This document shows positions 5,249 to 22,648 of a stretch of DNA of 23,253 nt, one piece after another. Both the position numbers and the translations under genes were made by a program. The stretch is from a virus. The stretch is from the IMG/VR virus record IMGVR_UViG_3300021131_000049, positions 1-23,253 of that record; one strand, written 5' to 3'. Every line of letters starts with the position of its first letter. Positions within the stretch are counted from its first letter, which is position 1. The notes below the pieces were generated by a model, which saw nothing but the letters and a program-made list of their open reading frames with translations, searched no databases and was not told where the DNA came from.

Positions 5249-5602
5249 TTAGTTGACAATTAAAGTCGTTTTGGCTATTTGGTTCTTTGTGCTGTCCTCT
5301 AGCAATAAATATAGGTACTTGCTTTGGAGAGCTCTGGTATAAATATTTAGCTTATTGGTTCCAATGACGCCCTTGATTATTTCTCTGGTAACCACCTGAT
5401 TTTCTATGGAGTCCATCATGGTCAACGTGTAGGTCCCTGCGGATTTTAACGTAAATTGTATCTCTTGTCCGTTGGAAACAGTATTTTGCGCAGCATCAAA
5501 TACGTTCTTATCTGGCGTTACTTTTTGTACGGGCGCAACAGTCTTTGTGCACGATATTATAAAAAGCATACAACACAATATTATAGTTTTCATACATTTC
5601 AT
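5249..5602 (-). CDS. Lipoprotein B of a paralogous pair
   Basis: A 117-residue lipoprotein with signal peptide MKCMKTIILCCMLFIIS and lipobox Cys18; ATG at 5593 (MKTIILCC) is an alternative start. The first ATG overlaps the stop of the upstream gene as TAATG and is preferred. The C-terminal domain (AGTYTLTMMD to the end) aligns with lipoprotein A through G-T-N-K-L-N-IYT-x-A and S-K-Y. The pair is therefore a tandem duplication that has diverged strongly. Direct coupling to the PA14/dockerin-like secreted protein suggests that they work at the same envelope site; this is inference. Confidence 0.7.
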   Translation of the reverse strand: MKCMKTIILCCMLFIISCTKTVAPVQKVTPDKNVFDAAQNTVSNGQEIQFTLKSAGTYTLTMMDSIENQVVTREIIKGVIGTNKLNIYTRALQSKYLYLLLEDSTKNQIAKTTLIVN

Positions 5603-7212
5603 TAATTTACCGTTATTTTTAATTGGGTCCCAGATTGATTAACTGCATCTATGGGTGTTATTGTTATTAGACCCAGTACGTTGGTTAATTTTACTAAAGG
5701 TTTAAACGATATAACGTATTTGGTCGTGTTGTCGAGCACCCCAGTGCCGTTTGTGATTAAAGATCCAAAGTTTATGTACTGTCCCTTGTTCGTAGAAAAA
5801 TTATTAGAGTTATTGACAGTGGTGAAAGTCGTGCTTTGATACTGCAATATCGAACTATCGTAATTCAAGTGATATTGAGTTCCTACCACTGCCTGCTGTA
5901 AAGGATCTAGGGTTATGGTAGCGTAAACACTGTCGCCTATCAACTGGGTCACTATCGAAGATTGAATCTTATTCGATACCGGTGACTCAAGGGAAAACGT
6001 TGCTACTCCTGCAGTTTGTTTGGTAGAGTAACTAAGTTTAGCGTCCCCTAACCATATAGTGGCCACGTAGAAAGTATCGTTAAGTTTTCCACTCGGTAAA
6101 GTGAAAGGTACTAACGATCTTGTTCCACTGTAAGCGCTCCAATTGGTGTGATTGATACTATCGTAAGTAGATTGATTGTACAGCTTTAGCATGTTGGGTA
6201 AAGTAGACACTAAGGATTTTTTGCCGGTCAAATGTTGTAAAAGTAAGTAGCAATCGGTTTCGTCAAATTGCCCATCGTTGTTTACGTCAGCGGCTATGTA
6301 TTGAGCAGCAGAGGTAAAGTAATTACCAGCAGTGTTTCCTAGTAACCCTTTGTTCGAATATTCCTGAAACGCTAAATACACATTCGACACGGTTATGATA
6401 CCATTGTATAAGGAAGTTAAATTGGTTGTGGTCGTTAGTCCCAAAGCTTCGGCCTTATTTTTGGTAGTATCCACGCTAGTACTTACGTCCACAGTATCGC
6501 TAGTGCTAATCACAGTTGCAGTATTGTTTGGAGTTAAAGTGTAAGCGTTATTAGCGTAAGTGTAGATATTAGTGCTAAAATTGGTCGGTGTTATTAATGT
6601 GTTAAAATTGAAATTAAACTGGACTTTCAATTGTTGTGTTACTGTAGGTTGCGTAGAATAGAGTTCGTCTGCTTGTACTGCGTAAGAAGATTGAGAAGGT
6701 CTTTTCCAAGTTAAATACATTCCCCATCCTCCACCGGTTTGTTGCATTCTGGTCATAAAAGTGTACGATTGACCAGCGACTAAATTAATAGATCCATAAC
6801 GATATCCTGAAAATCCGTGAGGACCGTACTCTGAAGTAACCACAGCTCCGTTCAAAGAGAAGTCGACTCCATCGTCTCCGTCTATTGCGAAGGAATAAGT
6901 TCCGGTCTCTTTTGGAATAAAGTAACCATAGGATTTGATTCCGAAATAAGCGCCACCGTTAGGGACTCCAGTAAAAAAAGTTTGACTAAAGTATATTGCG
7001 TTGCTTGCAGTCGTAACTCCGGATTTGTATATTGTAGTACCATTTGCGGTATTAAACATATTGTTAAAATCCGTAGCGCTGTTAGCGTAAACGTTCGCAC
7101 CACCATTGTAAGTTGCAATGTTGTATATCGTATAATTCAAATAGCCTACTCCCGATTGAGAGTAAGCTATTGAAGAAATTAATAATAAGAATGCAACTAT
7201 TAAGGATTTCAT
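5602..7212 (-). CDS. Secreted PA14 / dockerin-like / cohesin-like protein
   Basis: A 536-residue protein. The signal peptide is about 1-18 (cleavage near AYSQ). Residues about 45-175 resemble a PA14 domain, a carbohydrate-binding fold in adhesins and glycosidases: GYFIPKETGTYSFAIDGDDG, then LNGAVV and GGWGMYLTWKRP. Residues 309-330 form a canonical dockerin-type calcium loop, DVNNDGQFDETD, with ligands Asp309, Asn311, Asp313, Asp317 and Asp320, followed by the helix CYLLLQHLTG. Residues about 425-536 resemble a cohesin-type jellyroll (TITLDPL, LNYDSSILQY, FKPLVKLT, ending LKITVN). The second half is paralogous to the upstream 7212-8843 product. It overlaps both neighbours by one base (TAATG). 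Dockerin and cohesin modules pair between proteins in cellulosomes; whether these bind each other is unknown. Confidence 0.75.
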   Translation of the reverse strand: MKSLIVAFLLLISSIAYSQSGVGYLNYTIYNIATYNGGANVYANSATDFNNMFNTANGTTIYKSGVTTASNAIYFSQTFFTGVPNGGAYFGIKSYGYFIPKETGTYSFAIDGDDGVDFSLNGAVVTSEYGPHGFSGYRYGSINLVAGQSYTFMTRMQQTGGGWGMYLTWKRPSQSSYAVQADELYSTQPTVTQQLKVQFNFNFNTLITPTNFSTNIYTYANNAYTLTPNNTATVISTSDTVDVSTSVDTTKNKAEALGLTTTTNLTSLYNGIITVSNVYLAFQEYSNKGLLGNTAGNYFTSAAQYIAADVNNDGQFDETDCYLLLQHLTGKKSLVSTLPNMLKLYNQSTYDSINHTNWSAYSGTRSLVPFTLPSGKLNDTFYVATIWLGDAKLSYSTKQTAGVATFSLESPVSNKIQSSIVTQLIGDSVYATITLDPLQQAVVGTQYHLNYDSSILQYQSTTFTTVNNSNNFSTNKGQYINFGSLITNGTGVLDNTTKYVISFKPLVKLTNVLGLITITPIDAVNQSGTQLKITVN

Positions 7213-8843
7213 TATTCTACTGTTAGCTTAACTTTGTTACCGCTACCGTCTACCGCATCGGCCAACACTGTAAAGAACAATCCAGTTGCGTCAGTCAATG
7301 GAACAGTAGGTGTAAAAATTAATGTGTAAGGAACTCCAACTTTAATTCTAGCAGTTTTAATTTGATCTATAGAACCAAAAGTCAATCTACCGTTATTGTG
7401 CGTAGAGAAGTTAGTGATATCGTTTCCTGCGTCGAATACTACGTTCGATAAGCTTAACTTAGTGCTATCGTATTGTAATATAACTTGCAATCCTGCCAAA
7501 CCAGCTTGAGTTAAAGTTCCAGTCAAAATAACTTTACCGTTAGTTATAGTAGAAGATAAATTCAACGAAGCATCAGTTATAGTTGGAGCCGCTGTGTTTA
7601 CGGAGAAAGAAGATATTTTATCAGCGCTATTAACTGACATGCCTGCAACCGATCCTGGTATTAAAGAAGGATCCGTTGAGTGAGAGAAGTTTAAGTCTCC
7701 ACCGTAAGCGTAAGCTAAAGTATCGATTTGATTAATTGAGTTGATGGTGAATGTGTGATCTGACAAAGATCCTGCTGCCCAATTATTATACTTTCCTGAC
7801 ATGAAACTCATTGCAGTAGCCGTTGACGATGGGATTCTTGCTTTTGAACTTACGTCTATGCCCATTACGTAAGCAAATAAATAATACGCATCGTTGCTGT
7901 CAAACGTAGAATCTTGAATACCAACGTGACCGATTATCTTCTGTAAAGTAGGGTAAGTAAAATAGTTGTTAGTTCCGGTCAACCCAACTTCAGAAACGCC
8001 CAAGAAAGCTTTGTAAGCGTTGGATACTGTTACGATATTGTCCAAGTAAGGTTTACCAAAAGACGGAGTAACGTAGACTGCAAATTTTTGACCCACTTTT
8101 AAAGTCGTAAACGTAGCAATACCTTGAGCGTTAAACTTAGTTTGCGCAATTGGAGGATTGCTCCAATCGGTAGTTCCATCGGTTTTAAGACCCATTATCT
8201 GGGCGTTCAAGTTTGTGATAGTTGTGTCCCCTTGTGGAAACGCTATAGCAACTTTATAAGACGACGTGTTTCCTATTACGTTAGAAGTAGGAATAGTAAA
8301 ATCCAACACTTGAGATCCTATGTTTGCGATTGCTTTACCTGTAGAATCGGTAGCATTTGATAGATCAAGCTTGTGAATATATGTGTAGTCTTTCTGATCT
8401 AATAAAATGTATTTTTGAGAAGCTATCAACCCTGAAATTGGTGCGTCGGTTCTTTGTACAGTTAACTGACCAATATTCCAGCTATTGTTTGCTGCGTAAT
8501 TCCATGGAGTGTGTTGGAACTGTCCGTACAAATCTCCTACGCCTATAGTTGGGTAAGAACTAAATTGATAGTTGTTCCAGCTCGTATAGTAAGTTTGAGA
8601 AGAAGTACCTTGAGAAAATACTGTACTATTAGGAACGTACTGTAACGCACCGTTATTGTATTGGTATCTCAACCAAAAATAACGAGGTGTTGTCCCAGAG
8701 TTAGTAACCGTATAGCTGATGGTCAAAGTATCTCCTACGTGATAAGGAGGCTGTTGAACTATCGCCTGGTTAATAGTTATGTTTTGAGAAAAAGAACAAA
8801 GGGATATCAAAAGTATCCCTAAAAATAATACAATTTTTTTCAT
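7212..8843 (-). CDS. Secreted dockerin-like / cohesin-like protein, paralogue
   Basis: A 543-residue protein with signal peptide 1-19 (MKKIVLFLGILLISLCSFS). Residues about 22-130 form a strand-rich CARDB/Ig-like domain (GDTLTISYTVTNSG) in place of the PA14 domain of its neighbour. Residues 271-330 match the neighbour's dockerin region (TVSNAYKAF versus TVSNVYLAF), but its calcium loop is degenerate: position 1 is Val307 and position 3 Ile309, while Asp311, Asp315 and Asp318 remain. Residues about 430-543 are cohesin-like and align closely with the neighbour: NFSTxxxG, FGS, F-x-P-x-V-x-LT, DAV and a final LTVE/ITVN. Gene duplication with N-terminal domain exchange is likely. It is probably exported to the periplasm or surface. 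Confidence 0.75.
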   Translation of the reverse strand: MKKIVLFLGILLISLCSFSQNITINQAIVQQPPYHVGDTLTISYTVTNSGTTPRYFWLRYQYNNGALQYVPNSTVFSQGTSSQTYYTSWNNYQFSSYPTIGVGDLYGQFQHTPWNYAANNSWNIGQLTVQRTDAPISGLIASQKYILLDQKDYTYIHKLDLSNATDSTGKAIANIGSQVLDFTIPTSNVIGNTSSYKVAIAFPQGDTTITNLNAQIMGLKTDGTTDWSNPPIAQTKFNAQGIATFTTLKVGQKFAVYVTPSFGKPYLDNIVTVSNAYKAFLGVSEVGLTGTNNYFTYPTLQKIIGHVGIQDSTFDSNDAYYLFAYVMGIDVSSKARIPSSTATAMSFMSGKYNNWAAGSLSDHTFTINSINQIDTLAYAYGGDLNFSHSTDPSLIPGSVAGMSVNSADKISSFSVNTAAPTITDASLNLSSTITNGKVILTGTLTQAGLAGLQVILQYDSTKLSLSNVVFDAGNDITNFSTHNNGRLTFGSIDQIKTARIKVGVPYTLIFTPTVPLTDATGLFFTVLADAVDGSGNKVKLTVE

Positions 8844-15797: not shown

Positions 15798-16685
15798 TTA
15801 ATCTTTGTAGTAGGCCTTGAAGTCTCTAAAATCTCCCCACTCGCGACTTGAATCGATGTCCTTGGGTTTAATCGTTGGTTTGGGCATATTACCGGCCACG
15901 TTCCAGAACCAATCCCCCTGCTGTCCATGGCTCTTTAGGAGCTCCCAACCTTTGGCATCGTATGTTTGTATAGAATCGAAAGGAGTCTGCACCCTTGAAG
16001 CTTTTAAGAACGGTCTATCGTGAGTGTAGAATTTAGCTCTACCGAGTTCTCCGTCCTGTACGTTTCTTGCAACAGCAACCGCATTAAATTTGGTGTTCGG
16101 TAAAGCTATCTGTAAAGTACGAGATAAAACTCCAGTAGAAAATACTGTCCACATTGTTTCGATATCGGTGTTTTTAAAATTATCGTGGAATATTCTAACT
16201 CCACCGGCAACCACCATCTCGTGCTTTAGACCGAAAGGTAAATATTTTGCGCCGATTCTTTCTGCGAATTGTTTCGCCCATATGTTTGCGGTAGGCATCG
16301 CAGGAATCTTTACGAACAGTGGAATTCCACCGTTTTCTATTGCGGTTAGTTGGTGCTCCGAAGCCTCTTTTGACGCTGGCATAACTAAATACAATTTTTT
16401 GTTGTACTTCTTTGCCAAGTGACAAAGCGAATAAGGCGCGTAACCTGTTCTTGGCGCTACGTAAACCATTGCGTCCTCTTTTACTTGAGAGATCATGAAA
16501 TCTCCCATCTTTGCTTTGGTACCGAATTGGAATTCTCCATCGTCGACTACGTTGAATCCATCGTACTGTTTTACTTTGAACGTAAAATCGTGTTTGTAAT
16601 CTTTTGTCATGTTCAAGTAGTAGTTTAAATCTCTACCGTTGGACATGTCCAAGTTGGATTGATCTGTTGTTTTATTTAGAAACAT
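15798..16685 (-). CDS. PLP-dependent fold-type-II-like protein
   Basis: A 295-residue protein. The order of segments resembles the tryptophan-synthase-beta/ACC-deaminase family: FGTKAKMGDF (55-63, Lys57 where the family has the PLP lysine in GGNK), VYVAPRTGYAPYSLCHLAKKY (75-94, like the S/T-G-N-H helix), LYLVMPASKEASEHQLTAIENGG (98-120, like IVMP...K...GA), and VFSTGVLSRTLQIALP (181-196, like GGGGxxAG). The last segment lacks the Gly-rich PLP phosphate loop (STGVLS instead of GGGG), so the cofactor may be absent or bound differently. I do not know a phage function. It overlaps the upstream SGNH-like gene by 14 bases, which implies a joint role. Confidence 0.55.
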   Translation of the reverse strand: MFLNKTTDQSNLDMSNGRDLNYYLNMTKDYKHDFTFKVKQYDGFNVVDDGEFQFGTKAKMGDFMISQVKEDAMVYVAPRTGYAPYSLCHLAKKYNKKLYLVMPASKEASEHQLTAIENGGIPLFVKIPAMPTANIWAKQFAERIGAKYLPFGLKHEMVVAGGVRIFHDNFKNTDIETMWTVFSTGVLSRTLQIALPNTKFNAVAVARNVQDGELGRAKFYTHDRPFLKASRVQTPFDSIQTYDAKGWELLKSHGQQGDWFWNVAGNMPKPTIKPKDIDSSREWGDFRDFKAYYKD

Positions 16686-17625
16686 TTAGTATTTCGTTTA
16701 AGTATGCATAGTGTTTTGGGCGTAAGTGTACGGATTGCTTCATCTCTAAAATGTCTAGCATCTTGGTTCCGTCTTCGTCTATCCACTCTGTAGGCCATTT
16801 AATTACTTTCAAGCCCGATTCGTTGATGATGTTGTTTGCGATCTGTCTTAATTTCATTCTTTGTACTCGAGTACCGAAGAAAGGTTGTTTCTTGTACAAA
16901 CCGGTGCCAGGAATTTTTCTTGATTCGTGTTCTACTGGTAACAACTCTACTAAAGTACAATCGTTCAATTGTTTAGCGAACTCTACGTATCTTGTGAATA
17001 GATCTATAGTCGCTTGCTTTGGATCTTCTTGTCTCATTAAGTGAAATCTTAAGTCAATATTACCGAAGTACAAAGTAGTCTCGTCGAACAATTCGTTGAG
17101 AGAACCAATTTCAGCAGAATTTCTTTTTAAGAATCCGTGCAAAGTTCTACCGGCAGTAAACTCCAAAGAATATCCTGGTCTCCATACTGATAAAGCATGG
17201 GAATCTCCGATAACCGATTTTCTATTTACTAGACCATGAGCCATAAAAGTGTTGTACCAAGGCAATTCACCGACTTCTGGATACGTTACTCCTTCGATCT
17301 TTAATCTTTGATTGAACTTGTTGAAGTCGAAAGACGTATTAGAATATCTTATCTCGCCTTTGAACTCTGCGATCGCTTTCATCTTCTCTGTGTGAATTGG
17401 CTGTGGACCGCCAGGAACATTAAACGATCCTTCAACGAAATTAACTCCTTCGCAAACGTACAACATATCGTAAGAACCCCAATCACTAGGATCGGGGTTT
17501 ACGTCTACTGTATCGTCAGGATGGTTATCTTTCAACATTCTTGTTTGGATTATGCCGTACCCTCCTCCCTGTGAGTTAAGAGTTGAACCGACATTTCCCA
17601 TGATTGATATTAATCCTATTTTCAT
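16672..17625 (-). CDS. SGNH-hydrolase-like protein
   Basis: A 317-residue protein. The first 130 residues are of unknown fold: MKIGLISIMGNVGST, SYDMLYVCEGVNF. From about 138 the sequence matches the SGNH/GDSL hydrolase pattern: VIGDSHALSVW (Ser142 as nucleophile), YFGNIDLRF (188-191, like block III GxND) and a late His in SVHLRPKHY. The family covers esterases and deacetylases of sugars, lipids and other substrates. The D of the final DxxH is not in its usual position, so activity is uncertain. No signal peptide; acts in the cytoplasm. It starts after GroEL with a 21-base gap that is A-rich. Confidence 0.6.
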   Translation of the reverse strand: MKIGLISIMGNVGSTLNSQGGGYGIIQTRMLKDNHPDDTVDVNPDPSDWGSYDMLYVCEGVNFVEGSFNVPGGPQPIHTEKMKAIAEFKGEIRYSNTSFDFNKFNQRLKIEGVTYPEVGELPWYNTFMAHGLVNRKSVIGDSHALSVWRPGYSLEFTAGRTLHGFLKRNSAEIGSLNELFDETTLYFGNIDLRFHLMRQEDPKQATIDLFTRYVEFAKQLNDCTLVELLPVEHESRKIPGTGLYKKQPFFGTRVQRMKLRQIANNIINESGLKVIKWPTEWIDEDGTKMLDILEMKQSVHLRPKHYAYLNEILNVSK

Positions 17626-17646: not shown

Positions 17647-19266
17647 TTACATCATTCCCGCTAAAGGGTTCATTTCATCTTTCTCGTCAGCGCCTTTTTT
17701 CTCGAATACAACCGACTCGGTAGTTAAAATTGTACCGGCTACAGAAGATGCGTTTTTAAGTGCGGTGATAACTACCTTCGCTGGATCGATGATACCTGCC
17801 TCGATAGCGTTTACCATAACGTGATTCTTGGCGTCGTATATTTGACCGTCCTTAGGAACGAATGTGTACCAGTCTTCGATTCCTGCATTGTCCAAAATTT
17901 TCTTGAACGGAGCTTGAATGGCTTTTTGAACGATAGATCGACCGATTGCATCGTTAGTTGATTCTTCTGCGTATTGCTCTAAAGAAGCTTGGAATAAAGC
18001 AGATCCACCGCCTGGTACGATACCGTCCGCTAACGCAGCTTTGGTTGCGTACAACGCGTCCTCTACTCTATCTTTCTTTTCTTTGATCTCGATATCGGAA
18101 TTTCCTCCAACATTGATAATAGCAACACCGCCGACCAATTTACCCAATCTCTCTTGTAACTTCTCTTTCTCGTAGAATGAAGTAGCCTTTTCGATTTGCT
18201 CTTTGATCTCTTCTGCTCTTGCTTCGATTTTAGCTTCGTCGCCTTTACCGTCCACAATTGTAGTTTCTTCTTTAGATATAGTCGCTAAACGAGCAATACC
18301 AAGGAATTCGCTTAATTGTTGAGGAGTTAATTTGTCCAATTTGTGTCCTTTGTCTTTTGAAATAACTTGACCACCGGTTAAGATAGCGATGTCTTCCAAG
18401 ATCAACGTTTTTCTTTCGCCAAAATCAGGAGCTTTAACCGCACACACTTGTACTATACCTCTCATTTTGTTTACGATCAATGTAGCCAATGCTTCGTCTC
18501 CGATATCTTCTGAAATGATCAATAAAGCTCTGTTCTCTGCGTTTGCTTTTGTTAATGCTTGTAACAACTCTTGCGCAGAAGAAATTCTACCGTCGTACAA
18601 TAACACTAAAGGATTTTCCAATCCAGCTTGCATCGTTGTATTGTTAGTAACGAAGTAAGGAGATTTGTAACCTCTATCGAATTGCATACCTTCTACAATC
18701 TCTAAGCTAGTTTCACCTGTCTTAGACTCTTCGATGGTTACAACACCTTCGCGACCAACTTTTCCGATTGCAGTAGCGATTAAGTTACCAACTTCTGGAT
18801 CGTTGTTACCTGAGATCGTTGCAACTTGTTTTATTTGCTCTTCAGATCCGACTTCGATCGCCAACTTCTTAATGTTGTTAACTACTTCTTTTACCGTTTT
18901 GTCGATAGCATTTTTAATTTCTACCGCGTTAGAACCTTGACGAATTACTTTCAATCCTTCTCTTACGATTTCAGTGGCCAATAAAGTAGAAGTAGTCGTA
19001 CCGTCTCCAGCCTCGTTAGCTGATTTGATACTTACTTGCTTTACTAACTGAGCTCCTAAGTCTTCTACGTCGTCTTCCAATTTGTGGAAAGCTTTAGCGA
19101 CAGTAACACCGTCCTTAGTAACTTTTACTTCACCGCTTTGTTCTTTTATCAAAACAGTTCTACCACCAGGTCCTAAAGTTGAAGACACTGATTGGTTTAA
19201 TTTGTTGATACCGGCCAATAACTTTTCTTTAAGTTCCGTACCGCTTATGTTTGTTGTTGTACTCAT
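17647..19266 (-). CDS. groEL: GroEL chaperonin (phage-encoded)
   Basis: A full-length 539-residue group I chaperonin (E. coli 548). Equatorial ATP site: LGPGGR (31-36), TKDG with Asp52, and GDGTTT (87-92); the late hydrolysis Asp is in DRVEDAL. Apical substrate-binding residues RGYKSPYF, ELLQAL and ALATLIV match those of GroEL. The C-terminus is a short NPLAGMM instead of a GGM repeat tail. LGPGGR replaces the usual LGPKGR, a change at a highly conserved lysine. It is complete and in frame, so it is likely active in folding phage proteins. GroES lies 4 bases upstream. Phage-encoded GroEL is known from a few large phages. Confidence 0.97.
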   Translation of the reverse strand: MSTTTNISGTELKEKLLAGINKLNQSVSSTLGPGGRTVLIKEQSGEVKVTKDGVTVAKAFHKLEDDVEDLGAQLVKQVSIKSANEAGDGTTTSTLLATEIVREGLKVIRQGSNAVEIKNAIDKTVKEVVNNIKKLAIEVGSEEQIKQVATISGNNDPEVGNLIATAIGKVGREGVVTIEESKTGETSLEIVEGMQFDRGYKSPYFVTNNTTMQAGLENPLVLLYDGRISSAQELLQALTKANAENRALLIISEDIGDEALATLIVNKMRGIVQVCAVKAPDFGERKTLILEDIAILTGGQVISKDKGHKLDKLTPQQLSEFLGIARLATISKEETTIVDGKGDEAKIEARAEEIKEQIEKATSFYEKEKLQERLGKLVGGVAIINVGGNSDIEIKEKKDRVEDALYATKAALADGIVPGGGSALFQASLEQYAEESTNDAIGRSIVQKAIQAPFKKILDNAGIEDWYTFVPKDGQIYDAKNHVMVNAIEAGIIDPAKVVITALKNASSVAGTILTTESVVFEKKGADEKDEMNPLAGMM

Positions 19267-19270
19267 AATA

Positions 19271-19564
19271 TTAATCTTCTATCACAGATAGAATCTCTGT
19301 GTCTTTGGTTAAAAAATAATCTTCGCCGCCTACTGAGATCTTCATAGTTCCCATCTTTGGAATCAGAACTTTCTGTCCAACCTGGAATTGAGAATCTACG
19401 TACTCTCCGCGATGCCAGTTGTAGGTTTGGCTTACTGCAATAACTTCGCCCATTTCAGGACGTTCCTTTCCAAGATCAGGTATTACGATATTACCGTAGG
19501 TCTGCTCTTGTTCTTCTACTGGTTTCAATACTGCGAAACCGTTTTTTGGGTTTAATTTACTCAT
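19271..19564 (-). CDS. groES: GroES co-chaperonin (phage-encoded)
   Basis: A 97-residue protein, same length as E. coli GroES. N-terminal strand NGFAVLKPVEE, the mobile loop QTYGNIVIPD with the hydrophobic tripeptide IVI that contacts GroEL (IVL in E. coli), then PEMGEVIAV and a core ending VGQKVLIPKMG, FLTKDTEILSVIE. The loop is followed by an unusual LGKERPEMGE. The order GroES then GroEL and a 4-base gap (TAA-TATT-ATG) matches the cellular groESL operon. T4 uses a GroES-like gp31 only; here both partners are present, so a self-contained chamber is likely. Confidence 0.93.
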   Translation of the reverse strand: MSKLNPKNGFAVLKPVEEQEQTYGNIVIPDLGKERPEMGEVIAVSQTYNWHRGEYVDSQFQVGQKVLIPKMGTMKISVGGEDYFLTKDTEILSVIED

Positions 19565-19569
19565 ATATT

Positions 19570-19761
19570 TTATTCTGTGATTATTTGTAATTCTTCTATC
19601 TCTTCCGTAAAATAGAACATATCGTTATTCTTGAAGACGTGCGGCGTATTGAATAGCTCTTTAGCGAGATCTAAATTCAATATGCGCTCTTCTGCGTAAA
19701 TTTTCTTTACTAAGAAAAGACGATCGTTTACTTTAATGAAGTTTTTGCAAATTGAGAACAT
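19570..19761 (-). CDS. Hypothetical 63-residue protein
   Basis: A small protein between Hsp20 and GroES. It is mixed strand and helix (FIKVNDRLFLVKKIYAEER, AKELFNTPHVFKN) with an acidic end (TEEIEELQIITE). No motif is recognised. Support is positional: it fills the gap between two chaperone genes with 5 bases to the GroES start, and the start has the local CAGTTATG context. A chaperone accessory role would be speculation. Confidence 0.55.
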   Translation of the reverse strand: MFSICKNFIKVNDRLFLVKKIYAEERILNLDLAKELFNTPHVFKNNDMFYFTEEIEELQIITE

Positions 19762-19785
19762 AACTGGTTACTTGGTAGGACTTGC

Positions 19786-20217
19786 TTATCCTTTTAATAA
19801 TTGTTTTGGCGTAGTAATTTTAATTTGTTTTACCGCCTTGCCTTCTGCGACGGGAATTGTTAATATCAATAATCCCTTGTCTAAAGAAGCTTTTAATTGA
19901 TTAAGATCGAATTTAGTTGAAATTTTCCAACTTAAGTCAAAGCCCGATCTCTTGATACCTCGATAAATAGATGTTTCTTGATCAAAAGGACGTACTTTTT
20001 CGTACTTAATACGTAATAAGTCCCCTTCTACTAAGATTTCAATATCGTCTTGTTCAAGGCCAACTGCAGCAACTTCAAATCGAATGCCGTCTTGTGTTTC
20101 AAAAATGTCTACTGGGTGTGATACTTTCTGCGTGATTGCAGAGAAATGCGATTGTGTGTCTGATAAATCTCGCCATAATAGGTCAAAGATATCTAGCTCG
20201 AATGGTCTAAATGTCAT
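19786..20217 (-). CDS. Small heat shock protein (Hsp20, alpha-crystallin domain)
   Basis: A 143-residue Hsp20. N-terminal arm FELDIFDLLWRDL; alpha-crystallin domain from about residue 34 (HPVDIFETQDGIRFEVAAVG) through DIEILVEGDLLRI and FDLSWKISTKFDLNQLKASL to GLLILTIPVAE. The C-terminal VKQIKITTPKQ carries an I-x-I motif that docks neighbouring dimers. It binds unfolding proteins without ATP. Hsp20 genes are known in T4-like cyanophages. Position just before GroES/GroEL in the same direction makes a chaperone operon, which may be driven by the box at 20303. Confidence 0.93.
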   Translation of the reverse strand: MTFRPFELDIFDLLWRDLSDTQSHFSAITQKVSHPVDIFETQDGIRFEVAAVGLEQDDIEILVEGDLLRIKYEKVRPFDQETSIYRGIKRSGFDLSWKISTKFDLNQLKASLDKGLLILTIPVAEGKAVKQIKITTPKQLLKG

Positions 20218-20231
20218 AATTTTAGTTTTGT

Positions 20232-20248
20232 GTTCCCTTTCGGTGAAC
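20232..20248 (-). promoter_or_regulatory. GNRA-capped hairpin in the Hsp20 leader
   Basis: The minus strand reads GTTCACCGAAAGGGAAC: GTTC pairs with GAAC, then an A bulge, CC with GG and a GAAA tetraloop. It lies 15 bases before the Hsp20 start in the longest intergenic gap of the window (20218-20344). It could affect translation, for example as a temperature-sensitive or protein-bound leader, but the stem is only six pairs. No T run follows, so it is not a terminator. Confidence 0.35.
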
Positions 20249-20302
20249 GATTAAATAATTGTTTTATAACTGAAGGCCTACCAAGTACCTTGTTTATTTC
20301 TA

Positions 20303-20312
20303 ATAAATATAC
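20303..20312 (-). promoter_or_regulatory. Candidate promoter box GTATATTTAT before the chaperone operon
   Basis: Minus-strand GTATATTTAT, identical to the boxes at 33-42 and 9375-9384. It lies in the gap between the DNA polymerase and Hsp20 genes, about 86 bases before the Hsp20 ATG. TATATTTA differs by one base from the Bacteroidota -7 element. It would start a transcript with a long leader containing the 20232-20248 hairpin. Confidence 0.5.
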
Positions 20313-20344
20313 GCACATTTTAATTTATAATGAAATTTATGTCT

Positions 20345-22648
20345 CTAGTGACCGTCTCGCCAATTTGGTGCCAATGCAGGGACAGCCTTTAACTTAAGAC
20401 TTAATTTGGTGGTATTCTCCATACAATCTTGTACAATTTCGGCAGCTTCCTTTGCTCTATCGTGATCCACTTCGCAAATCAACTGGTCATGAATCTGAGC
20501 GCACACCCAGCCTTTTATTCCGGCTTGCTTGAATCTTCTATTGATTGCCAATGCGGCTCTGTTTACGATAGACGCAGATAGTCCTTGAATCTGTACGTTT
20601 TTGGCGTTGTTTAGTCCGTTTACGAAGTCCCTTGAAATGCTTTTGACTTTGTCTTCTCCGTGACTGTAGGCTAACTCCTTTTTGGTATTGTAGTCCAACA
20701 TTGCGTCGCCTAGCTGTTCGTATATCGCTTTTACTTTCGGTAAGTGTCTTATACGACCAACTTGTGTTTTAACGTATCCTAAAGTTCTTGCGTCGTTCTC
20801 AGACTTTCTCATCCACTTCTCTAGTTCTGGGAATCCACTTAGATAACCGTCGACCAATTTCTTTGCTTCCTTTGTCGATACTTCGATGTTCTTACCCAGA
20901 GCGTAAGCTCCCATGCCGTAAGGAATACCTAGAGCGTAAGCTTTTGCCTTGTTTCTCAACTTAGGTGCAAGCTTTCTTAAATAGTTGTCGGCCTTTTTAT
21001 CAGGGGAATATTGATCTAATTTTTCTGTTTTGATTGCGATCGTTGAATAGAAGTCCCAACCGTTTCTAAAGATATCCTTTAGTCCTTCGTCGCCCGATAC
21101 GTGAGCGAATACGTGTGGCTCTAACGATTCGTAGTCGTCGTCGATGAATATGTTGTGTTCGTCAGGAACGAAAAATGCTCTTACTCTATTGTTGTATTCG
21201 ATTACGATTGGATCGTCGTCACCTTCTTCCTTTGGTCGTGGTAATTGTTGAGCGTCGGAACCGTAACGGCCCGATACTGTACCGTGTTGTTTGTAACTAA
21301 AGTAATATCTACCATCCTCTTGACCGTCCAAGAATCTTTCTACGTAAGTGGACTTGATCTTTAATAACTTGTTGTATATTCTTAGATTCTTCGCCCATTC
21401 TTCTGTATCTCCAATGGCTTGAATCATATCGTCGTCGAACTGTGGTTTACCGGTTTTTGTGGTAGATTTTGCCTTGATACCCAAAGCACCGAAAGCAATT
21501 TCACCTAACTGATCTTTGGATTGTATGTTGAACCAGTTACCGTCGTTGGATTCTTTCCAAAGCTTTAACTGTATTTTGGTGATTTGATCTGGCTCTAGGA
21601 TTTGTGTGTCTCCGTGTAGTAAGAATTGTTTAACTGGACCGTCTGGAATTCTTAGTATGTTTGCGTTGGCGATGTTGTACTTGCCGGTCTTTTCCGACCT
21701 TGGGAATTCTATACCGCTCTGATCTATAAGTTCTATGGCAAATGTACCTCTGTTGTTCGCAGGGAACGCATTCGCAGCTTTTATCAAGATCCAATGTTTT
21801 ACTTCTGCATAACTTAACAACTCTTCAACGACCTTCTTCTTGTGATCCTCTAGAGCTTGGGTAACTTCGTCCTTAGTTCTATTGATTAGGTCCATATCTA
21901 GCTTAACTCCGGTTTCTTCCATTGGGATAGTAACTTCTTTGTACAATGGCATTACTTCGTCCTCGAAGAAAAATGCTTCTAGACCTTGATCGTATAGATC
22001 CTTAATAAAATGATTGTAAACTCTTAGCGTTAGATCGGTATCGGCCGCAGCGTACTCGGATAGAATATTGATATCGGCTTTCCATATTTCGTAATTGTCT
22101 CGTGTAACAGAGCCGCCGTTTTCTTTGATAGAATTCTTTAGAGCTATCTGTTCTTCGTTGGCCGCTTTTTCTACGTCCAATCCAAGTTCTTTTTGAATCA
22201 TCTTGGCGATACTCTTCAAACCAAATGGAGAACTGGATCCGAACCCAGCGCCTTCTTCGTTAACAGTGTGTACTAACAACATTGTATCTGCGCGCAAAGA
22301 GGACAACAGATCGATCTTAAAATAGTTCTTAACGAATCTACAGTCGAAGCTTGCGTTGTGCATGATCAGCTTTTTGCCGACCAACATGTTAATCACTTTG
22401 ATCGATACATCGTGAGCTTTAACGTCCTCGATATACGCATCGACCAATTCGCCGTTTTTGAATAATTTTGTAGGGAGATAGTAACCTTTACCAGGTTCTG
22501 CTGAAACTGACCAACCTATAATCGAACCTTTTCGTGGGTTTAACGATGTGGTCTCTGTATCGAACGCAATAATGTCGTTCTCTAATATGTGTCGTGCCAT
22601 TTCTTGCACGAGCTCTTTGGTATTAACCAGAACATAACTCTTTTCCAT
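20345..22648 (-). CDS. Family A DNA polymerase with 3'-5' exonuclease
   Basis: A 767-residue replicative polymerase. Exonuclease motifs: DTETTS (Asp30, Glu32), HNASFD (Asp102) and YAAAD (Asp203), all intact. Polymerase motif A is DDDYESLE (Asp505), motif B RNKAKAYALGIPYG (Arg565, Lys569, Tyr577) and motif C IHDQLICEV (His720, Asp721). There is no 5' nuclease domain, as in phage polymerases. Two variants stand out: Leu573 at the place of E. coli Phe762, which influences nucleotide discrimination, and Gln722 where Glu883 is usual. An unusual insert at about 285-345 separates the exonuclease from the thumb. The start is an ATG 9 bases after the 58-residue gene. Confidence 0.96.
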   Translation of the reverse strand: MEKSYVLVNTKELVQEMARHILENDIIAFDTETTSLNPRKGSIIGWSVSAEPGKGYYLPTKLFKNGELVDAYIEDVKAHDVSIKVINMLVGKKLIMHNASFDCRFVKNYFKIDLLSSLRADTMLLVHTVNEEGAGFGSSSPFGLKSIAKMIQKELGLDVEKAANEEQIALKNSIKENGGSVTRDNYEIWKADINILSEYAAADTDLTLRVYNHFIKDLYDQGLEAFFFEDEVMPLYKEVTIPMEETGVKLDMDLINRTKDEVTQALEDHKKKVVEELLSYAEVKHWILIKAANAFPANNRGTFAIELIDQSGIEFPRSEKTGKYNIANANILRIPDGPVKQFLLHGDTQILEPDQITKIQLKLWKESNDGNWFNIQSKDQLGEIAFGALGIKAKSTTKTGKPQFDDDMIQAIGDTEEWAKNLRIYNKLLKIKSTYVERFLDGQEDGRYYFSYKQHGTVSGRYGSDAQQLPRPKEEGDDDPIVIEYNNRVRAFFVPDEHNIFIDDDYESLEPHVFAHVSGDEGLKDIFRNGWDFYSTIAIKTEKLDQYSPDKKADNYLRKLAPKLRNKAKAYALGIPYGMGAYALGKNIEVSTKEAKKLVDGYLSGFPELEKWMRKSENDARTLGYVKTQVGRIRHLPKVKAIYEQLGDAMLDYNTKKELAYSHGEDKVKSISRDFVNGLNNAKNVQIQGLSASIVNRAALAINRRFKQAGIKGWVCAQIHDQLICEVDHDRAKEAAEIVQDCMENTTKLSLKLKAVPALAPNWRDGH

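Follow-up and report, generated by a model that had tools for sequence, protein, structure and literature searches.

An intact Hsp20-u63-GroES-GroEL operon with a changed GroEL ring interface, conserved in a lineage of phages related to Flavobacterium phage immuto

The virus contig analyzed in this work (IMG/VR record IMGVR_UViG_3300021131_000049; all 23,253 bases of it, hereafter the window) carries on its minus strand, at 17647-20217, a complete and intact operon for the small heat-shock protein Hsp20, a 63-residue protein without known function (u63), the co-chaperonin GroES and the chaperonin GroEL, as an earlier note made from the sequence alone had proposed. Within the literature and databases searched, the fixed four-gene operon, u63, the leader ahead of Hsp20 and the aromatic ring interface of this GroEL were new. 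We read the operon, with a probability of about 0.6, as a self-contained group I chaperonin system of a T4-like myovirus that would fold phage proteins, with the gp23 capsid protein as the likeliest main client.

Genes on the minus strand were ordered as family A DNA polymerase (PolA, 20345-22648; Pfam PF00476, E=3.6e-67), Hsp20 (19786-20217), u63 (19570-19761), GroES (19271-19564) and GroEL (17647-19266), with intergenic gaps of 127, 24, 5 and 4 nt, respectively. GroEL (539 aa) was identified as a group I chaperonin by Pfam PF00118 (Cpn60_TCP1, E=7e-59) and the PHROG groEL family (E=7e-143), and its Cpn60 domain spans residues 23-523, i.e. full length. GroES (97 aa; PF00166, Cpn10, E=5.7e-17) is of cellular length, as had been claimed, and contains the IVI tripeptide, since its mobile loop reads GNIVIPD. 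Hsp20 (143 aa; PF00011, HSP20, E=4.5e-11) consists of an alpha-crystallin domain protein with a C-terminal I-X-I motif, IKI, of which I132 and I134 were invariant in 8 aligned relatives. Inactivating changes were looked for and none was found in the four genes (17647-20217). In four long relatives Hsp20 was always present (4/4) and the cassette GroES was the sole Cpn10 gene of each; whole-genome searches recovered no Hsp20 from any of 11 GroEL phages, cultured or reference.

Conservation of the cassette was assessed in IMG/VR, where 283 stretches encode relatives of this GroEL subfamily and the best 80 of the 283 were read. All four genes were recovered by tblastn in 67 of these 80 loci and in 58 of the 59 loci that reach 1300 nt or more upstream of GroEL; in the exception (L072) u63 was found by HMM, bringing the (PolA)-Hsp20-u63-GroES-GroEL cassette to 59/59 loci with room for it. 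Because the same four genes recur in the same order in all of these related loci, chance is ruled out as an explanation for the arrangement. Median gaps across relatives were 27 nt (Hsp20-u63), 4 nt (u63-GroES) and 7 nt (GroES-GroEL), and PolA, full length in relatives, lay upstream of the cassette in all contigs extending that far, often separated from Hsp20 by insertions (many relatives, e.g. L006, L012 and L032). Insertions of 155-790 nt were also seen between GroES and GroEL in four loci (L051, L052, L066 and L065), and in L051, L066 and L065 these held ORFs that by eye resembled GIY-YIG/NUMOD homing endonucleases or a remnant of one. All four cassette genes are under purifying selection, with dN/dS, where measurable, of 0.04-0.07 (GroEL), 0.03-0.12 (GroES), 0.05-0.10 (u63) and 0.09-0.19 (Hsp20).

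The ATP-site and substrate-binding segments reported in the earlier note were confirmed residue by residue. Conserved positions of the nucleotide pocket include T30, D52, D87-T91, D398, G414-415 and D495, and the ATPase residues D52, D87 and D398 together with the nucleotide loop were identical in 62/62 GroELs of the clade. Apical substrate and GroES contacts were likewise conserved (Y199, Y203, F204, L234, L237, L259, V264 and N265, with Ile at V263), and across the 62 sequences the ATP and apical sites were invariant save for conservative swaps, e.g. V263I and N479D. The GGM-repeat C-terminal tail, which is common in group I chaperonins and does not define them, is missing, and the protein ends in EKDEMNPLAGMM.

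The contacts between rings are changed. In E. coli numbering, position 463 is Trp in 62/62 clade GroELs vs Ser, Ala or Gly in 79 bacterial GroELs, and position 464 is Trp, Tyr or Phe in 62/62 vs Val, Ile or Leu in the same 79. Two further ring-ring contact positions, 108 and 109, are Arg in 62/62 and Gln in 59/62 clade sequences, respectively, and cavity residue 359, usually Asp in bacteria, is Phe in 62/62. The aromatic pair was not present in the GroEL of Flavobacterium phage vB_FspM_immuto (immuto) or of the other phages compared. Mutations at 452, 461, 463 and 464 produce SR1, the single-ring variant of E. coli GroEL, so 463/464 belong to the surface on which ring pairing depends. From sequence, the changed contacts would alter what is expected of the pairing of heptameric rings; aromatics at 463-464 could instead weaken pairing and favor single rings. 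As a natural and invariant change of a ring-ring contact, this interface should be useful for studies of ring communication.

A GroEL phylogeny against bacteria and phages, as the earlier note had proposed, was built from 62 sequences, 43 of them bacterial, with long-branch phages left out. The clade and the immuto GroEL were sisters (100/100), with all 43 bacterial sequences placed elsewhere; given also the stem of the clade, of 1.0 changes per site, its GroEL is not a recent host gene. Recent capture of a host GroEL was rejected both on this placement and on the nearest bacterial GroEL among the matches listed, which was ~52% identical. Two Vibrio phage GroELs grouped with E. coli and that of Bacteroides phage DAC19 nested in Bacteroidales, which suggests that phages captured GroEL several separate times. 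One sequence labelled Candidatus Rokubacteria (L102) fell inside Flavobacteriaceae and is probably misbinned.

The operon is preceded by a conserved 5' leader of ~96 nt (20218-20313, minus strand). A covariance model (R1) gave one strong match in the window, at 20215-20313 (E=1.1e-13; next best 0.81). At its upstream end, ~90-100 nt before Hsp20, lies a box, TATATTTATT (consensus TATATTTATA; 20302-20311, minus strand), whose columns ATATTTAT (8) are identical in 41/41 aligned relatives while the sequence further upstream differs; the box is promoter-like and a putative promoter of the operon. Two hairpins follow on the same strand. P1 (AAGGUAC UUG GUAGGCCUU; 20273-20291) covaries at its outer pair (A-U, U-A, G-C or C-G), the next pair (G-C or A-U) and the closing pair (U-G, C-G or U-A). 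P2 (GUUC A CC GAAA GG GAAC; 20232-20248), with a loop that is usually GNAA, shows U-A to C-G double changes in 8/41 sequences and others at two more pairs. Over the 41 leaders, 91.1% of cells pair in a standard way vs 27-52% with the partner slid, 21 cells in 5 of 12 pairs are changed on both sides, and shuffles matched the observed values in 0/500 cases for double-changed cells and 32/500 for the number of pairs; since the 41 sequences scored had also served to draw the structure and kinship of sequences inflates such scores, this covariation is good but not final evidence. The case for the hairpins rests on it, as folding of a single sequence did not reach significance (z=-0.58) and no pairs emerged from the first consensus fold. 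In a subclade (L012, L022 and L025) and in L073, P2 is absent and a strong Shine-Dalgarno sequence stands instead.

Of nine long relatives, seven have a single leader, at the Hsp20 operon, an eighth has two tandem copies, and the ninth gave no match over threshold; no convincing copy was seen elsewhere in these relatives. The tandem copies of L079 (G009:17104-17201 and 17840-17938) are ~640 nt apart, the second being at Hsp20. With essentially one copy per genome, a generic phage element was rejected, and so was a known riboswitch or other known element, as the leader had no Rfam match. An RNA thermometer found no support: the RNA around the start codon is predicted to be mostly accessible from 5 to 37°C (unpaired probability 0.59 and 0.68, respectively), and no Rfam family was matched.

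u63 (19570-19761, minus strand) belongs to no Pfam or PHROG family, in line with its description as an unknown in the earlier note, and had no match in the phage collection. A profile scan placed it between Hsp20 and GroES in 77/80 loci. Strict confinement to the cassette was rejected, because in 3/80 loci, of a single lineage, it lies elsewhere. In L280-L282 a u63-like ORF outside any chaperone cassette overlaps, by eye, a thioesterase-like ORF, and one contig with such an ORF (G020) has its GroEL elsewhere. The fold predicted for u63 is beta-beta-alpha-beta-beta (pLDDT 82), without a PDB match (best E=0.3) and with only uncharacterized viral proteins as look-alikes in BFVD. A tentative extension of the main reading, to which we give clearly less weight, is a regulated module in which u63 would act with Hsp20 or GroES, e.g. 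as a client adaptor or by reading the leader hairpins, and in which the Trp463/aromatic 464 interface would make the GroEL orthogonal, so that it forms no mixed rings with that of the host.

The window is a fragment in which structural genes are absent and no tRNA was found in the 23,253 bases, and the identity of the virus was approached through its relatives. Among 10 long cassette-bearing contigs, tail sheath was present in 8 and a gp23-type capsid gene in 4, these being the four longest (136-183 kb); three of the four have the sheath, and the remaining one (G003) gave no sheath match. The virus is very probably a T4-like myovirus, on the strength of gp23 in the longest relatives and the tail sheath in 3/4 of them, genes seen in long relatives and not in the window. 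gp23 of the long relatives grouped with Microcystis phage Mel-JY01 and Rhodothermus phage RM378, and in the one relative compared it was 58% identical to the gp23-type capsid protein of immuto. The host is probably a member of the Bacteroidota, given the kinship with immuto and the lack of a Shine-Dalgarno-like sequence ahead of the Hsp20 start in the window.

Neighbors in the window include dUTPase, dCMP deaminase, thymidylate synthase, an endolysin-like glucosaminidase and thioredoxin. Just downstream of GroEL lie two conserved genes, g317 (16672-17625), with a predicted SGNH/GDSL-hydrolase-like fold (best PDB E=1e-4), and g295 (15798-16685), which matches a PHROG threonine dehydratase; near thymidylate synthase, they are possibly a nucleotide or DNA-modification pair. 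Two secreted-looking proteins (5602-7212 and 7212-8843) have segments that weakly resemble dockerin (E=0.003) and cohesin (E=0.005), and one of them has a PA14 domain, a combination unusual for a phage. A 464-aa secreted-looking protein (622-2016) with long Ser/Ala-rich and Lys/Glu/Ser repeats belongs to no Pfam or PHROGs family.

In the mechanism proposed here, the cassette would be expressed from a start at the conserved box, just downstream of 20302-20311, and the transcript would then run through the two-hairpin leader. Hsp20 would act as a holdase for aggregation-prone new phage proteins, and phage GroEL rings capped by phage GroES would fold the held proteins in the usual ATP cycle, the rebuilt ring-ring contacts (Trp463 and aromatic 464) favoring phage-only rings over mixing with host GroEL. 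Phage proteins beyond the folding capacity of the host, the reason for the operon offered in the earlier note, remain a plausible one. The likeliest main client, by analogy, would be the gp23-type capsid protein, since T4 gp23 needs GroEL with gp31 (PMC9611531) and small heat-shock proteins have been proposed to take part in capsid maturation in T4-like cyanophages (PMC3827213). gp23 as an obligate client was not supported. Two gp23-related phages, Mel-JY01 and RM378, have no GroEL and no GroES, and a third (LR756508) has GroES only, so the gp23 capsid family does not need a phage chaperonin in every case.

The same machine might serve other clients, namely replication or nucleotide-metabolism proteins or other phage enzymes, in place of the capsid, which we hold possible and well below the gp23 reading. 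The conserved neighbors of the cassette are DNA polymerase A, dUTPase, dCMP deaminase and thymidylate synthase, and in the window the operon is not within a structural module. Gene neighborhood alone is no proof of client use, however, PolA and the cassette are often split by insertions, and many phages have such enzymes and no chaperonin. Chaperonins also occur in phages without gp23 (no gp23 match was obtained in the GroEL phages elemo, Calle, EL, DAC19, crAss and Panino), some gp23 phages have no chaperonin, and the chaperonin of phage EL was found associated with endolysin (PMC7185714). A role as general host-protection cargo, keeping the infected cell alive or replacing host GroEL under stress without a special phage client, appears unlikely. 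Heat-shock proteins are general and a similar host-survival role has been suggested for phage HSP20 (PMC7674155), but the long separation of this phage lineage, its invariant ring interface, its own GroES, the conserved operon order and the lack of recent exchange with bacterial GroEL favor a dedicated phage role, and temperature sensing by the leader was not supported.

That the chaperonin is a holdase only, preventing aggregation without a GroES lid as in phages EL and OBP (PMC7185714, PMC5934643), is very improbable: the adjacent GroES is equally conserved and has an IVI mobile loop, apical GroES-binding residues are intact, and with GroES adjacent and only ~25% identity to EL-type chaperonins this GroEL falls outside the GroES-independent class. 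Bacterial contamination or a chromosomal fragment, the placement that the earlier note had named as fatal to its claim, can be given next to no weight. Public phage sets do include chromosomal groSL contaminants; here the source is a virus record, the nearest listed bacterial GroEL is only ~52% identical, and phage synteny, which by itself refutes contamination, extends over dozens of contigs with capsid and sheath genes, the longest of 183 kb.

The rarity of phage GroEL, and of the full GroEL and GroES pair, asserted in the earlier note did not hold. In addition to the 283 IMG/VR stretches, GroEL relatives occurred in 269 records of the phage collection, a count inflated by chromosomal-looking records such as CAKLQH020000021.1 (L377; groSL among bmrU and dgkA genes) and the Salmonella contigs AFYI01000007.1 and AGRM01000005.1 (~500 kb), and both genes are carried by Elemovirus, Callevirus and Immutovirus. 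The assertion was out of date, since phages with both genes had been described (Marine et al. 2017, as cited in PMC7185714 and PMC9611531); soil is reported to contain viral chaperonin peptides as well (PMC8390657). For the question of why some phages bring a whole chaperonin, others a lid only (T4) and others nothing, the clade is a useful case: its system is compact and deeply conserved, has candidate clients and an unstudied partner protein, and is preceded by a structured, putative control region. Among relatives, G011 has GroES-GroEL with Hsp20 not nearby, and G013 has Hsp20 with GroES-GroEL and no detected u63; the aromatic 463/464 pair is absent in both. Judged from these two gene sets, the sequences suggest that the operon grew stepwise, which can be tested because close relatives (immuto, G011, G013 and Mel-JY01) hold fewer parts.

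Among known systems, the nearest cultured case is immuto (Immutovirus), which has adjacent PolA-GroES-GroEL genes in the same order, a GroEL that is 56% identical and forms the sister branch of this clade, and a gp23-type capsid; unlike in the present phages, Hsp20 is missing from the whole genome, no ORF separates PolA from GroES, the leader has no match near GroES and the ring interface is without the aromatic pair. The virioplankton phages of Marine et al. 2017, as relayed in PMC7185714, PMC9611531 and PMC8390657, similarly have group I pairs in large dsDNA genomes. Elemovirus and Callevirus, phages of Bacteroidota hosts, also encode both GroEL and GroES, but with a GroEL of ~38-40% identity, a different gene order or spacing, no gp23 match and no Hsp20. 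The EL/OBP chaperonin is likewise a phage GroEL homologue with altered ring contacts, although it is only ~25% identical and works without GroES, and EL has no adjacent GroES gene (PMC7185714). Cyanophage small heat-shock proteins are a further case of Hsp20 in T4-like phages with a proposed capsid role, at ~25% identity to this Hsp20 and in a report that does not place GroEL alongside (PMC3827213). T4 gp31 is a phage GroES-type lid with which, together with host GroEL, gp23 is folded (PMC9611531); whereas T4 supplies the lid only, the operon described here encodes the ring, a lid of GroES length and Hsp20.
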